From a virus: 64,000 nt of DNA. Position 1 is the stretch's first letter. Each line of letters starts with the position of its first letter. A model generated the notes under the pieces. It saw only the letters and a list, made by a program, of their open reading frames with translations. It did not search any database and was not told the DNA's origin. Location of the stretch: positions 1 through 64,000 of the IMG/VR virus record IMGVR_UViG_3300028197_001024. One strand, written 5' to 3'. This document shows positions 57,275 through 62,995 of the stretch, piece after piece. The position numbers and the translations under genes are program-made.

Positions 57275-57829
57275 ATGCCACTACCACATTATACCCAATC
57301 AAGGGCCAGTAGCCAAAGGTACGAACCTGTTCAGCCTAACCTATTCGAGGTGACTGTATTTTCACCATTAGGAGATGATACGGGTTTAATCTTGGAGCAA
57401 GTTAAAACTATCGGGGGTTTAAATAACTTAAATCCTGCTGTAGATGCAATAGGACAGAAATATAAATTTGCTGACCGTTCATTTGCAAGTATGCCAGCTT
57501 CCACAGTTATGGATCTGACTGTTAACTTTAGTCTTAACTTAAATGAAGCTAACGAAAATTACATTTACAATACATTCCGTAATTGGTATAAATTAATCTA
57601 TGATCCATTGACTGGTGAAATGGGATTAAAGAAAGACTATGTTGGAAGTATGATCATTGTACAATATAACAGAGCAGGTGATGTTTTCAGAAAGATCACA
57701 TGTAAAGATGTATTCCCTACAGGTCAACCTGATTTTGTAGATGAATTAAGTTATGAAACTCCAGACGCAGTTGATTTAACAATGACTTATCGTTGTGATC
57801 ACTGGGTTGAAGAAAATGTAGGAGCATAA
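57275..57829 (+). CDS. gp19: Tail tube protein (gp19)
   Basis: A 184-aa protein (T4 gp19 is 163). NLFEVTVFSP, MPASTVMDLTVNFSLNLNEA, NYIYNTFRNWYKLIYDPLTG and FRKITCKDVFPTG are tube-family features. It polymerises into the inner tail tube inside gp18. A strong terminator follows, which would uncouple it from the GIY-YIG gene. Confidence 0.92.
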   Translation: MPLPHYTQSRASSQRYEPVQPNLFEVTVFSPLGDDTGLILEQVKTIGGLNNLNPAVDAIGQKYKFADRSFASMPASTVMDLTVNFSLNLNEANENYIYNTFRNWYKLIYDPLTGEMGLKKDYVGSMIIVQYNRAGDVFRKITCKDVFPTGQPDFVDELSYETPDAVDLTMTYRCDHWVEENVGA

Positions 57830-57921: not shown

Positions 57922-58392
57922 ATGACAATCTTTAAAGTAATTAATGAAACAGATGGAAAGGTTTATGTAGGTTATTCGATTAATGATAATCCTAATAATT
58001 TAGGGGCAGGTAAATATATTAAAAGAGCAGTTAAAGATTTTGGAACAAGATCTTTTCAAAAAACTATTCTTGAAGAATTTGAATCTGAAGAATCATTAAG
58101 CCATATAATGGAAAGGCTAGAATTTTGGATAAAAAATTATAAAGCTGATAATCCTAAATATGGATATAACGAAAGCGTACAGGAATTAATTCCACAAAAA
58201 AAGAGACTTACAAAAAAATTACAAGTACTCTTAACACCAGAAGATGAAGATAATTTAAATGCAATTATCATTGAAAAATCAATGGAAAATAAATCAAAAC
58301 CGTTGCCTGTATCCAGGTATGTAAGACAATTAATTGTCGAGCATATAGTAGAGGAAACAGCACCTGAAAAACAATTAATAAAAACTAAATAA
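57922..58392 (+). CDS. GIY-YIG endonuclease with C-terminal DNA-binding region
   Basis: A 156-aa protein. The GIY-YIG domain covers ~1-85: TIFKVINETDGKVYVGYS gives the first two strands, LGAGKYIKRAVKDFG the helix, ILEEFESEESL and MERLEFWIKNY the region with catalytic Glu, and YGYNES the end, as in I-TevI-type enzymes. The first GIY Tyr is replaced by Phe. Residues ~95-150 (LLTPEDEDNLNAIIIEKS; SRYVRQLIVEHIV) resemble a ribbon-helix-helix or similar binding module. It sits between tail genes with its own flanks, as expected for a free-standing mobile nuclease. Confidence 0.7.
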   Translation: MTIFKVINETDGKVYVGYSINDNPNNLGAGKYIKRAVKDFGTRSFQKTILEEFESEESLSHIMERLEFWIKNYKADNPKYGYNESVQELIPQKKRLTKKLQVLLTPEDEDNLNAIIIEKSMENKSKPLPVSRYVRQLIVEHIVEETAPEKQLIKTK

Positions 58393-58394
58393 TT

Positions 58395-59402
58395 ATGAGT
58401 AGTCACGAAGACAACATTAAGAAAGAATTTGAGGCGGCTGAAGGTATAGTAGATACTAAGGCTGAAGTAAAAACAACAAATGCCGATGGTAAAATTACCG
58501 ACTTAGGCAAGGTAGATACTAGTAGAGGTTCTGGTGTAACATCAATAGATGATCCAGAAATACAAAGAATACAATCTTTGACTGGTTATGTTAAATTAGA
58601 TTTATCAATTTTTCCATCAGGTGGACAATTTTATAGAGAAGATTTTGAAATTCATATCAGAGCCGCAAGAGTTGGTGAGATTAGAGAATTTTCTACATTA
58701 GATGAAGAAAACATTTTAGATGTGGATGAAAAGCTAAACTCACTTCTAGTGAACTGTACAAAAATTATGTATGGTAACCAAAGAGGATCGTATAGAGATG
58801 TATTAGAAGAAGATAGAATATATCTAATCCTATCTATTAGGGAACTAACCTTTAAGGATGGTGAAAATAAACTGATGATGCCAGTTGGAAAAAAGAATTG
58901 TAAAACAGGAACTTGTAAATCACAAGAATCCGTCGAACTTAGAACAGGTAATCTTCAATTTAATGATAAAGATGATTTATTAGAAAAGTATTATGATTAT
59001 GAAAATAAATGTTTTACTATTCCAACTAAAAGTCATGGATCATTAACTATTGCACCACCAACAATTGGTGTAATGAGAGCTATTACAGATTGGATACGAA
59101 AAAGAGAAGAAGAAAATAAACCTTGGGATAAATCATCACTAGGTATTTTACCTTACATTCAAAGAGAATGGCGAGGATTTAATGATAAAGAAATATTTTC
59201 AGCCATTACAAATTTTCAAGGTTGGGATGCTAGCAAATTTTCAGTTATTTATAGATTAGTTGAAAAAGCAAAAATAGGAGTAAAGCCGGAATTTGCATTT
59301 CCGTGTGAAAGCTGTGGTGAGGAGGTCGCAGTCCCGCTCACGTTTCCCGGCGGGATCAAAGCTCTCTTTATTATTCAAGATATCTCTTCTGAACTTTTAT
59401 AA
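58395..59402 (+). CDS. Baseplate hub assembly-type protein (gp26-like)
   Basis: A 335-aa protein beginning two bases after the GIY-YIG stop. FPSGGQFYREDFEIHIRAAR, ILSIRELTFKDGENKLMMPV, IAPPTIGVMRAITDWIRKRE and a C-terminal CESCGEEVAVPLTFPGGIKA region look like the T4 baseplate protein family (gp26; PF12322-like, from memory). The last 35 codons are abnormally GC-rich. The stop lies in an overlap with a second open frame (+1) that continues the helical tail, so a frameshifted longer product is possible. Confidence 0.55.
   Translation: MSSHEDNIKKEFEAAEGIVDTKAEVKTTNADGKITDLGKVDTSRGSGVTSIDDPEIQRIQSLTGYVKLDLSIFPSGGQFYREDFEIHIRAARVGEIREFSTLDEENILDVDEKLNSLLVNCTKIMYGNQRGSYRDVLEEDRIYLILSIRELTFKDGENKLMMPVGKKNCKTGTCKSQESVELRTGNLQFNDKDDLLEKYYDYENKCFTIPTKSHGSLTIAPPTIGVMRAITDWIRKREEENKPWDKSSLGILPYIQREWRGFNDKEIFSAITNFQGWDASKFSVIYRLVEKAKIGVKPEFAFPCESCGEEVAVPLTFPGGIKALFIIQDISSELL
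59332..59355 (+). other. GC-rich RNA stem-loop near the hub-gene end
   Basis: TCCCGC/GCGGGA stem with loop TCACGTTTCCCG. It lies in a run of codons rare in this phage (CCG, CTC, ACG, CCC, GGC, GGG) and about 40 bases before the possible slip site. An AGGAGGT occurs just upstream (59320-59326). Confidence 0.55.
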
Positions 59403-59427
59403 AGTACGAGTACTATTATTAGAAAAG

Positions 59428-59652
59428 TTGCATCTCCAGCCTTCAGAGCTGGATTTGCTTCCTTTCTATGAGTATGAATATACTTTAGAAATGTTTAATG
59501 AGATTCTCAAGGATCGTAACGACGAGGATAAACAGAATACTCAATCCTATTCGGATAAATATAATACGGACAGCATGTCTAAGTCTATGAATAAACAGAT
59601 GAGCTCATTTAAAACTCCATCTATGCCAAAGATTAGTATGCCGAAGTTCTGA
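59428..59652 (+). CDS. Hub protein extension or gp51-like small protein (start unclear)
   Basis: The frame is open back to 59293 but has no ATG before 59491. The sequence LEKLHLQPSELDLLPFYEYE, then YTLEMFNEILKDRNDEDK, looks conserved upstream of that ATG. Options are a TTG start at 59428, a late ATG at 59491 giving 53 aa, or +1 frameshifting from the upstream hub gene at CTT-TTA-TAA (59394-59402). The tail is rich in Ser, Lys, Met and Pro (KTPSMPKISMPKF). I favour frameshifting, but it is unproven. Confidence 0.5.
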   Translation: MHLQPSELDLLPFYEYEYTLEMFNEILKDRNDEDKQNTQSYSDKYNTDSMSKSMNKQMSSFKTPSMPKISMPKF

Positions 59653-59668
59653 TAAATAAATAGATTGA

Positions 59669-62600
59669 ATGGCTGCTGTAACTCTTAAAGATTTAATGGA
59701 TCCTCTATCAAAAATAGAGGCTGCTGCAAAAGAGACTAATGAAAAATTAGATGCTCTTATTGCAGTTTCTGGTAGTAGTAACTCTGGTGGTGGATTAGAT
59801 GCCGCTATTGTAGCTCAATTAACAGCACAAACAGATTTATTAACTGCTATTGAAGCAAACACATCCAGAAATCCTTTAGGCGGAATGTTTAGTAAAAAAG
59901 GTGGTGGTGCTAAGAAAAGTAATGCTGGTGCTACATTAGAAGATTTAGGTCTTGGTGCAAAAATAACAGCCAAAGCAATGATGCTATGGTTATTAGTACC
60001 AAAGAAAGCTTTAGGTAAATTTAAAGGTTTTGTAGTAGATACACTTGAGGCCTTTGAAGGTATAAAACCTAAAAAAGTAAAAGCAGGTGCTGATGCTCTT
60101 GCTGTTGCTTCTGGTGCTGCAATGATATCTGCAAAGGCATTAATGATTTGGGCTTTTGTACCTGAATCAGCTATTGATAAATTTACAGCTTATATAACAA
60201 AATTAGATAAAGCTTTATCTAAGACTACACCTAAAAAGGCTAAGAAAGGTGCAGAGACTTTAGGTATGATGGGGGATGCACTTTTAAAATTTGCAAAAGG
60301 ATTAGCTTTAGCTGCAATATTAGTTCCATTAGGTTTAATAGCAATACCGTTCTTATTATTAGCCGTGACTGCCGTTGGTGGTATTATGGCTCTAATAGGT
60401 GGTAAGAAATTTTCTCAAAGAATAGGTAGAGGAGCAAGGACTTTAGATAAAGTAGGAGATGCATTAAAATCTTTTGCAATAGGAATCGGTTTATTTGCAC
60501 TTTCTACAATGTTTATTATATTAGCTCCACCTATTTTAATAGGAATGGTTGCTTCGTTGGTATTAATACCTGGTGCGATTGCAATCTTAGGTGGTAAGAA
60601 AATGTCTAAAAGAATCAGAAGAGGTGCATTAGGTCTCGCAATTTTAGGTGTAGCATTAATACCTTTTGCTTTAGGTTTAGCAATCTTTTCAATGGCTACA
60701 AAAGGTAATGGTATTGGTGATGTTCTTATTCAAGGTGCTACAATATTAGCAATTGGCGTATCTGCTGCCTTAGTTGGAAAATTTGGAATATCTAATATTT
60801 TACAAGGTGCATTAGCATTAGCAGTTAACGGTTTAGGGTTAATGGTATTTAGTTTAGGATATACCCCATTTGCTGAATCAACAAAAGGGTTAGGATTAAC
60901 TGATATATTAGTACAATCTGGAATATTAATTGCAATAGGTGGAATTATGGCATTAGCAGGATTAGCTGTTGCTGCAACTGCAGGTGCTGCGTTACTAGGT
61001 CCTGCATTATATGCAGCTGCTGGTTTAGCATTACAGGAATTAGCACCTGGTTTAATTGCAATGAAAAAGGTAGACTATAAGAAAAAAGATGCGGAAGACT
61101 TGTCATTTACATTAGGTGCTGTTGCTGCTGCGTTTTCAGGAGTAGATCCTGAGGCTGGTTTCTTATCTAATATAGGTAATGTATTTAGTAGAGTTGTACA
61201 AAGTGGGACTGGTTTAGCTGCAGCTGCTATGTATGGAGCTGCTGGGTTAGCATTACAAGAATTATCAAAAGGTCTAACTAAATTTAAGGCTATAGGATTT
61301 ACTGAAGAAGATTCAAAAGAACTTGCTGTTGCGTTAGGTTCTGTTAGTGGAGCCTTTGCCCAGGCCGGTGGGGAACCTGCAAGCCCTGGTGGATTATTTG
61401 GTGCAGTATTTGGAAATACATTTAGCCCTAATGCTACAGAGAGAGGTATTGATTCTGTAATGGATTCTGGTAAAGCTCTTGCTTCTATAGTTGATGGTCT
61501 TGCTTCATTTTTAGATCTTAAGAAAAAATATAAATTAGATGCAGCTGCATTTCAAGAAGGTGGATTCTTAGCTGTATCAATCGCAGATACATTAGGTTTC
61601 TTAAGTAAAGCTTTTGCTTCTATCGGTGGAATGGAAACCGAGGATTCCTGGGGTCCGTTTAAATGGGATGAGAATAAAGTTGAAAAAGGTATTGATGCAG
61701 TTAAAGGTTCAGGTAAAGCATTAGCTGATATAACTACAGGGTTAAAATCATTCTTGGATTTACAACAAAATTATGGATTAACTTCTGAATCTTTCAAAGA
61801 AGGCGGATTCCTACAAACGGCAGTAGTAGATACTTTAGGATTTGTTAGTAAAGCCTTTGGTACAATTGGCGGAATGGAAGTACAAGACGGTTGGGGTCCA
61901 TTTAGTTGGGATGAGAATGTGGTAGAGAAAGGAGTTGATGCTGTTAAAGGCGCAGGCCAAGAACTTACTAATATTGCAACAGGATTAAAAACATTCCAAG
62001 AGCTGGTAGAAAAAGAAATTGACTTTAAACCTGGTGGTAAACTTGCAAACGCTGTTACTAATTCACTATCATTTGTATCAACTGCATTTAGTGCGATTGG
62101 AGGAATGGAAGAATCAGATGGATGGTTTATATTTTCATGGGATGAAAACTCTGTAGAGAAAGGTATTGATGCTGTAAAAGGAGCTGGTGCAGAACTTAGT
62201 AATATTGCAAACGGATTAAAAACATTCGCGGATATGTCTACAACAGTTGACTTCAGTAAAAAAGGTAAACTTGCTACTGCGGTTAAAAATGCCCTATCAT
62301 TTGTAGGTAGCGCATTTATGAAAATTGGTGGAATGGAAGAGACTGATGGTAATTGGTTATTTTCTTGGGATGAAAACTTAGTACAAAAAGGTATTGAAAA
62401 TGTAGATGGTGCTGGTGCTGCATTAACTGATATTGCTAAAGGTTTACAATCATTTGCAGATTTAGAAAATCCTGGAGCCATAGCACAAGGCATTGAATCT
62501 ATATTTACCTCTATAGGTGATACATTTGCTAAGTATTATAAAGACACCGCATTCCGAACTGACTTAGATCATATGCAAGGATTTATTACAGAATTATCTA

Positions 62601-62995
62601 CTTATGCACAAGATGGGTCATTGGCAAAAGCCGCAACGGATATTCAATCAATCTCTAATGCTGTTAATTCTATTGATTCTATGAAAGCTGAATCATTTGC
62701 AAATCTATTTAAAGGCGCAGGCGAATTAAGTTCTAATAAAAGAGCATATTCTGCATTAGCTGATGCGGTCGAAGAGATAAGAGATATTTTAGGTAGCCAA
62801 GGTTCAAGTATTGGTGATGCCGTTGGTGGTGCTATTAGTAATGCATTCGGTGGAGGTGGAGATGAAAAGAAATCAACAAACAGTAATGGTGGAATAAACA
62901 AATCAATGAATAAAATCAATTCTACATTATCTCAGTTAAATACTACAATGAAATCATTACCTGTATCCATATCTAATTTAATACCTGATGATTAA
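59669..62995 (+). CDS. Tail tape measure protein
   Basis: A 1108-aa protein, far longer than T4 gp29 (590). The N-terminus is helical (SKIEAAAKETNEKLDALIAV). Residues ~95-480 have several hydrophobic helices (LGLIAIPFLLLAVTAVGGIM; FIILAPPILIGMVASLVLI), typical of tape measures that insert in the membrane. Residues ~590-930 carry five ~76-81-residue repeats containing SxAFxxIGGME and FSWDEN. A Gly-rich linker and a helical tail end it. It sets tail length and may form the DNA channel. Position after the hub gene fits. Confidence 0.85.
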   Translation: MAAVTLKDLMDPLSKIEAAAKETNEKLDALIAVSGSSNSGGGLDAAIVAQLTAQTDLLTAIEANTSRNPLGGMFSKKGGGAKKSNAGATLEDLGLGAKITAKAMMLWLLVPKKALGKFKGFVVDTLEAFEGIKPKKVKAGADALAVASGAAMISAKALMIWAFVPESAIDKFTAYITKLDKALSKTTPKKAKKGAETLGMMGDALLKFAKGLALAAILVPLGLIAIPFLLLAVTAVGGIMALIGGKKFSQRIGRGARTLDKVGDALKSFAIGIGLFALSTMFIILAPPILIGMVASLVLIPGAIAILGGKKMSKRIRRGALGLAILGVALIPFALGLAIFSMATKGNGIGDVLIQGATILAIGVSAALVGKFGISNILQGALALAVNGLGLMVFSLGYTPFAESTKGLGLTDILVQSGILIAIGGIMALAGLAVAATAGAALLGPALYAAAGLALQELAPGLIAMKKVDYKKKDAEDLSFTLGAVAAAFSGVDPEAGFLSNIGNVFSRVVQSGTGLAAAAMYGAAGLALQELSKGLTKFKAIGFTEEDSKELAVALGSVSGAFAQAGGEPASPGGLFGAVFGNTFSPNATERGIDSVMDSGKALASIVDGLASFLDLKKKYKLDAAAFQEGGFLAVSIADTLGFLSKAFASIGGMETEDSWGPFKWDENKVEKGIDAVKGSGKALADITTGLKSFLDLQQNYGLTSESFKEGGFLQTAVVDTLGFVSKAFGTIGGMEVQDGWGPFSWDENVVEKGVDAVKGAGQELTNIATGLKTFQELVEKEIDFKPGGKLANAVTNSLSFVSTAFSAIGGMEESDGWFIFSWDENSVEKGIDAVKGAGAELSNIANGLKTFADMSTTVDFSKKGKLATAVKNALSFVGSAFMKIGGMEETDGNWLFSWDENLVQKGIENVDGAGAALTDIAKGLQSFADLENPGAIAQGIESIFTSIGDTFAKYYKDTAFRTDLDHMQGFITELSTYAQDGSLAKAATDIQSISNAVNSIDSMKAESFANLFKGAGELSSNKRAYSALADAVEEIRDILGSQGSSIGDAVGGAISNAFGGGGDEKKSTNSNGGINKSMNKINSTLSQLNTTMKSLPVSISNLIPDD
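61439..62470 (+). repeat. Five protein-level repeats of 76-81 residues in the tape measure
   Basis: Units begin at 61439, 61682, 61925, 62156 and 62384, spaced 243, 243, 231 and 228 bases. Each starts (V)EKGIDAVKGxGxxL and includes TLGF(V/L)SKAF or similar, IGGME and WDEN. The fifth is incomplete. DNA identity is only moderate, so these are old duplications. Confidence 0.85.

Follow-up and report, generated by a model that had tools for sequence, protein, structure and literature searches.

A tail assembly chaperone (TAC) gene of a marine phage is very probably expressed via programmed +1 ribosomal frameshifting at a UUU_CCC site. The phage is related to the giant phages of Bacteroidota, and the stretch of its DNA that was analysed, referred to here as the window, is 64 kb long. 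Most ribosomes would read the frame from 58395 to 59402 and stop at 59402, producing a short protein (TAC-N), while a fraction of ribosomes at UUU_CCC would undergo a slip of the peptidyl-tRNA-Phe from UUU to UUC, with the rare CCC codon waiting in the A site. Slipped ribosomes would stay in the +1 frame to 59652, yielding a 418-aa product (TAC-NC) that carries an additional C-terminal domain (TAC-C). Sequence comparison bore out the frame transition, its bounds and two conserved elements, and the +1 frameshift that had been proposed was strongly supported, as the transition was conserved and selection switched from one frame to the other.

About 190 related loci were gathered. These included a close group (clade A, 66-100% identity), a second group together with LR756501, LR756502 and LR745206 (clade B), and further relatives, among them LR756500, the Lak phages and the isolates PAU, MA9V, pT24, PTm1 and MaF61. 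A scan of genome contigs found no relative.

Gene order and the two chaperone halves

The order of genes in the window was a tube-like gene (57275-57829; phrog_45, 1.1e-7), a GIY-YIG-like ORF, the TAC gene and a tape-measure-like ORF (59669-62995, plus strand, 1108 aa), which is the position expected of a TAC pair. The last of these started 16 nt past TAC-C. Because it had no family match, we infer its identity from position, length and hydrophobic stretches; the order was the same in clade A relatives. The GIY-YIG-like ORF (57922-58392; phrog_314, 9.8e-10) is of the homing-endonuclease type and lay between the tube-like and chaperone genes in 80 of 80 clade A loci, with nearly constant spacing, and therefore looks fixed, not mobile. 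In one locus (L082) the gap at this position was 1753 nt, which suggests another insertion.

The original prediction had called the upstream frame a baseplate hub gene. TAC-N (58395-59402, plus strand, 335 aa) had no direct match in Pfam and a weak match to phrog_150, "baseplate hub" (E 0.0016). Among 25 aligned homologues, 13 matched Pfam PF12322, T4_baseplate (best 3.4e-8, the window protein itself not being among the matches), and 13 matched phrog_150 (best 6.5e-7). The two halves were modelled apart. An AlphaFold model of the TAC-N half (mean pLDDT 79) matched T4-like baseplate hub assembly proteins in BFVD by Foldseek (E 1e-8 to 1e-5), and the TAC-C model alone gave no significant fold match. 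The gene belongs to the gp26/gp51 tail assembly chaperone family and does not encode a structural hub protein. Near its C-terminus, TAC-N carries a zinc-knuckle-like C-x2-C motif, and the unshifted product ends in ...FPGGIKALFIIQDISSELL.

The +1 frame was open from 59293 to 59652, so that its first 110 nt coincided with the end of the 335-aa frame, and its coding part (TAC-C, 59344-59652, plus strand; FPAGSKLSLLFKISLLNFYK...MPKF) was recognized by diversity at each codon position and by a profile match to the C-terminal domain of cyanophage and T4 gp51 (E 4.1e-6, probability 87). By this homology the +1 frame is the counterpart of the gp51 C-terminal domain, so that the locus combines TAC-N homology with a C-terminal domain in a shifted, overlapping frame, as in other TAC pairs. 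In T4, gp26 and gp51 each matched phrog_150 and gp51 had a further domain, phrog_634, at its C-terminus, so that the two genes appear to encode the short and the long chaperone separately. T4-like TACs are the topic of Vladimirov, Gautam and Davidson (2022, Virology 566:9, as cited in PMC12846349), and this reading accords with it. On the model of lambda G/GT, the short form would coat the tape measure protein and a few long forms would recruit tail tube subunits.

Position of the frame change

An alignment of relatives had been suggested as the means to tell fused from shifted frames, and it returned the shifted arrangement in about 180 related loci. In clade A the +1 frame was open from at least 62 nt 5' of the frame-0 stop to approximately 250 nt 3' of it (one locus in this count ran off its contig end), and it was also open across the junction in 87 further loci. 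In clade A, third positions of frame 0 carried a diversity of 0.61 upstream, and past the frame-0 stop third positions of the +1 frame carried 0.72. Counting from the TTT of the proposed slip site, codons +2 to +7 were constrained in frame 0 only and codons +8 to +18 mainly in the +1 frame; from codon +9 to the stop (59367-59399, plus strand), synonymous variability was near zero, marking a dual-coded stretch under constraint in both frames. In seven sequences (L092, L001, L006, L117, L119, L121 and L122) the +1 frame was closed by a stop exactly two codons before TTT; past TTT, no +1 stop occurred in any of the 31 closely checked junctions. These stops, together with the switch in frame constraint, place the shift between TTT and approximately codon +7.

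The same comparison left practically no room for a sequencing or assembly error or a broken gene. Nothing beyond the frame change itself spoke for this explanation. The relatives refuted it, as about 180 loci, drawn from isolates and from independent metagenomes, show the same transition. It is also very unlikely that the downstream frame is a separate gene translated by reinitiation or translational coupling, for example from a TTG near 59428. Coupled genes typically overlap, an ATG that may have a ribosome-binding site stands close to the frame-0 stop in some relatives, PAU among them, and the isolate records examined, those of pT24 and PTm1 included, list the two halves as separate hypothetical proteins (the metagenomic records were without annotation). 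However, the conserved start of TAC-C (FSLFQI...) precedes any start codon in the window and is under +1 constraint, and no conserved start codon faces the Shine-Dalgarno-like element described below. As had been predicted, the first conserved-looking stretch of the downstream frame lacks a usable ATG: none lies ahead of its conserved start, and the earliest possible starts, both TTG, come 28 and 37 codons past the slip codon. In L006-type phages the TAC-C core begins past the frame-0 stop, and neither L006 nor L117 has an ATG, GTG or TTG within the first 40 codons of the +1 frame; independent initiation is therefore unlikely to supply TAC-C there. In the long chaperones of L006, L117, L119 and L116, the slip site and the TAC-C core are separated by approximately 24 additional residues read in the +1 frame.

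Two other mechanisms were set aside. A -2 shift was rejected, as neither tRNA-Phe nor tRNA-Pro would re-pair two bases back, and so was transcriptional slippage, as there was no long homopolymer.

The GC-rich patch, proposed slip site and upstream element

GC content rose from approximately 0.30 to 0.47 at the junction (120-nt windows). The codons of this patch were confirmed as rare in the window, where the seven counted made up 1.8-8.5% of the codons for their amino acids: CCC 1.8% and CCG 6.5% of Pro, CTC 1.8% of Leu, GTC 3.4% of Val, ACG 4.9% of Thr, and GGG 5.5% and GGC 8.5% of Gly. The AGGAGGT noticed 5' of the patch was present at 59320-59326 and includes most of an intragenic Shine-Dalgarno-like GGAGGTC (59321-59327, plus strand), followed after 15 nt by the proposed slip site TTT-CCC (59343-59348, plus strand); 17 nt separate GGAGG from UUU. 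The combination GGAGGTC-N15-TTTC occurred once in 64 kb, against 0.01 expected.

Synonymous variability, averaging 0.35 in clade A and 0.38 in clade B, fell to zero or near zero at codons -8 to -6 (GGAGGTC, with none at all in clade A), at codons 0 and +1 (TTT CCC) and in the dual-coded end. Among 72 distinct junctions, exact GGAGGT stood at the same position in 65, and the slip site read TTTCCC in 64, TTTCAA in four (L011, of doubtful register, included), TTTCGA in two and TTTCCT in two. TTTCCC was invariant in 38 + 51 distinct sequences although CCC is rare, and the first G of GGAGGTC, a third codon position, was kept while the residue varied among Glu, Ala, Gly and Arg. GGAGGTC and TTTCCC kept a fixed mutual spacing across proteins approximately 30% identical, and across lineages at that level of protein identity TTT-C was followed by CCC, CCT, CAA or CGA. 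Every lineage with an alignable site had TTT-C except L007, L009 and L011; the assignment in L011 was ambiguous, and L007 and L009 have no TTT-C at the site, so their slip site must differ. Since CCC and GTC are rare yet fixed, they indicate a signal at the nucleotide level, and the rare codons mark, as read from conservation, the Shine-Dalgarno-like element and the UUU_C slip site.

The original prediction had attributed these codons to selection on RNA structure, an attribution that the relatives contradicted. As stated, TCCCGC (59332-59337) and GCGGGA (59350-59355) can pair into a hairpin in the window, and the folding z-score reached -2.2 in the tightest 60-nt window, but over 75 nt the folding energy was not unusual (z -0.3) and the pairing was broken in close relatives (GGC-GGC, GGA-GGT). 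In three windows across 21 lineages, z-scores scattered around zero with no consistent signal, and Rfam gave no match above its cut-off in the junction region; thus no conserved RNA structure of the kind that stimulates frameshifting was found near the slip site. The stem would, moreover, enclose the slip site and not sit 3' of it. That a selected hairpin drives the event is highly improbable.

A +1 shift further 3' is rather unlikely, whether at codons +7/+8 (CTC-TTT, which corresponds by homology to the -1 site of cyanophages) or at CTT-TTA-TAA, the slip site first suggested. Codons +2 to +7 being constrained in frame 0, a slip could occur anywhere from TTT to approximately codon +7, and constraint changes frame at about codon +8; frame-0 GIKALF aligns with cyanophage GLQSFF, where -1 shifting takes place, and the alternative site 2 (ALF/SLF) falls on the cyanophage -1 site. 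Against this, codon +7 takes several forms (CTC, CTG, CTT, ATG, TTA) that have no re-pairing in common, while TTTCCC is invariant, and in L006-type phages TAC-C starts past the frame-0 stop. The last codons ahead of the stop vary as well: CTT-TTA-TAA gives way to CTT CTT TAA, CTT CTA TAA or AAA GAA TAA, and the +1 frame is already under selection approximately 10 codons earlier. The suggestion of CTT-TTA-TAA was accordingly abandoned.

For the preferred UUU_CCC site, an in-frame UUU followed by C or U was found at 59343-59348, with TTT-C in most lineages. UUU_Ynn is described as especially prone to +1 shift in bacteria (PMC5009743), and at UUU_C tRNA-Phe can re-pair perfectly on UUC. No tRNA genes were found in the window. 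The conserved upstream GGAGGTC probably stimulates or tunes the shift. A Shine-Dalgarno-like sequence preceded 2 of 54 window ORFs of at least 120 aa, and ORF leaders in the window were A-rich, as in Bacteroidota. The scarcity of Shine-Dalgarno sequences and the affiliation of the relatives point to Bacteroidota as hosts. Ribosomes of Bacteroidia normally sequester the anti-Shine-Dalgarno (PMC9976891). It is conceivable, at rather long odds, that the element represents a new type of +1 stimulator, in which a Shine-Dalgarno element lying approximately 17 nt 5' of the slip codon influences Bacteroidota ribosomes during elongation. Genes for bS21 were present in 7 of 19 relatives searched (L203-L209), these being LR756504 and otherwise phages of clade B type. 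That phage bS21 plays a part was rejected, as LR756500 and PAU have GGAGGTC without bS21, and pT24, with a shifted GGAGGGT, has no bS21 either.

Relation to known frameshift systems

In tailed phages, shifts of -1, -2 or +1 serve the tail chaperone role (PMC5009743), and the kind of event proposed here is therefore already known. Lambda G/GT resembles the window in making a short and a frameshift-extended product from one message just before the tape measure gene, but it shifts by -1 and is unrelated in sequence. The N- and C-terminal domains of T4 gp26/gp51 and of cyanophage gp26-gp51 are homologous to the window halves; in T4 they belong to two separate genes, as opposed to one shifted pair in the window, while in cyanophages, too, the long form seems to arise by frameshift. 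In the four phages checked (P-SSM2, S-PM2, HTVC008M and Cr30), the extension lay in the -1 frame at a T-run, with GGAGG approximately 10 nt 5' of the run in three. P-SSM2, S-PM2 and Cr30 (L112, L113 and L115) have GGAGGG approximately 10 nt before T_TTT_TTC or T_TTT_TTT, a dnaX-like arrangement. The window differs from this type in its +1 offset at UUU_C, in a -1 frame closed around the overlap, and in GGAGG lying 17 nt 5'.

Like the window, prfB combines a +1 shift with an internal Shine-Dalgarno-like sequence. Its site is CUU_UGA with a 3-nt spacer, and in dnaX the Shine-Dalgarno spacing is about 10 nt. The window has neither the approximately 3-nt spacing nor the A-site stop of prfB but 17 nt and an A-site CCC, and its GGAGG-UUU distance fits no known Shine-Dalgarno-stimulated frameshift. 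The UUU_Ynn sites of bacterial reporters and influenza PA-X (UCC_UUU_CGU; PMC5009743) resemble the window in having a UUU in the P site, then a pyrimidine, in a codon that is rare or slow; UUU_CGA occurs in L012 and L202. Unlike the window, these sites are not described with a conserved GGAGGTC at a fixed upstream distance. According to PMC5009743, the HSTV-2 tail gene is very likely +1, and +1 shifts also occur in tsh of the Listeria phages PSA, A118 and A500 and, at CCC, in cps of PSA. These cases likewise place +1 shifts in virion-assembly genes, in PSA at CCC, but concern other genes and hosts, with no shared upstream element reported there. In the literature searched, with much subscription literature outside its scope, no +1 site with this signal was found in Bacteroidota phages, and the forward version with its GGAGGTC/TTTCCC signal was apparently undescribed before, as far as could be found.

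For the jumbo phages and megaphages of Bacteroidota, including those of the Lak type, +1 frameshifting is a probable route to their tail chaperones. One homologous gene pair seems to have used three solutions: two genes in T4, a -1 shift in cyanophages and a +1 shift here. The locus offers a compact, deeply conserved +1 site for study and, within a group in which translation does not start from Shine-Dalgarno elements, a strong internal one. If the element does act as a stimulator, frameshifting could depend on ribosome composition (ribosomes lacking bS21 or carrying phage bS21) and hence on the stage of infection.
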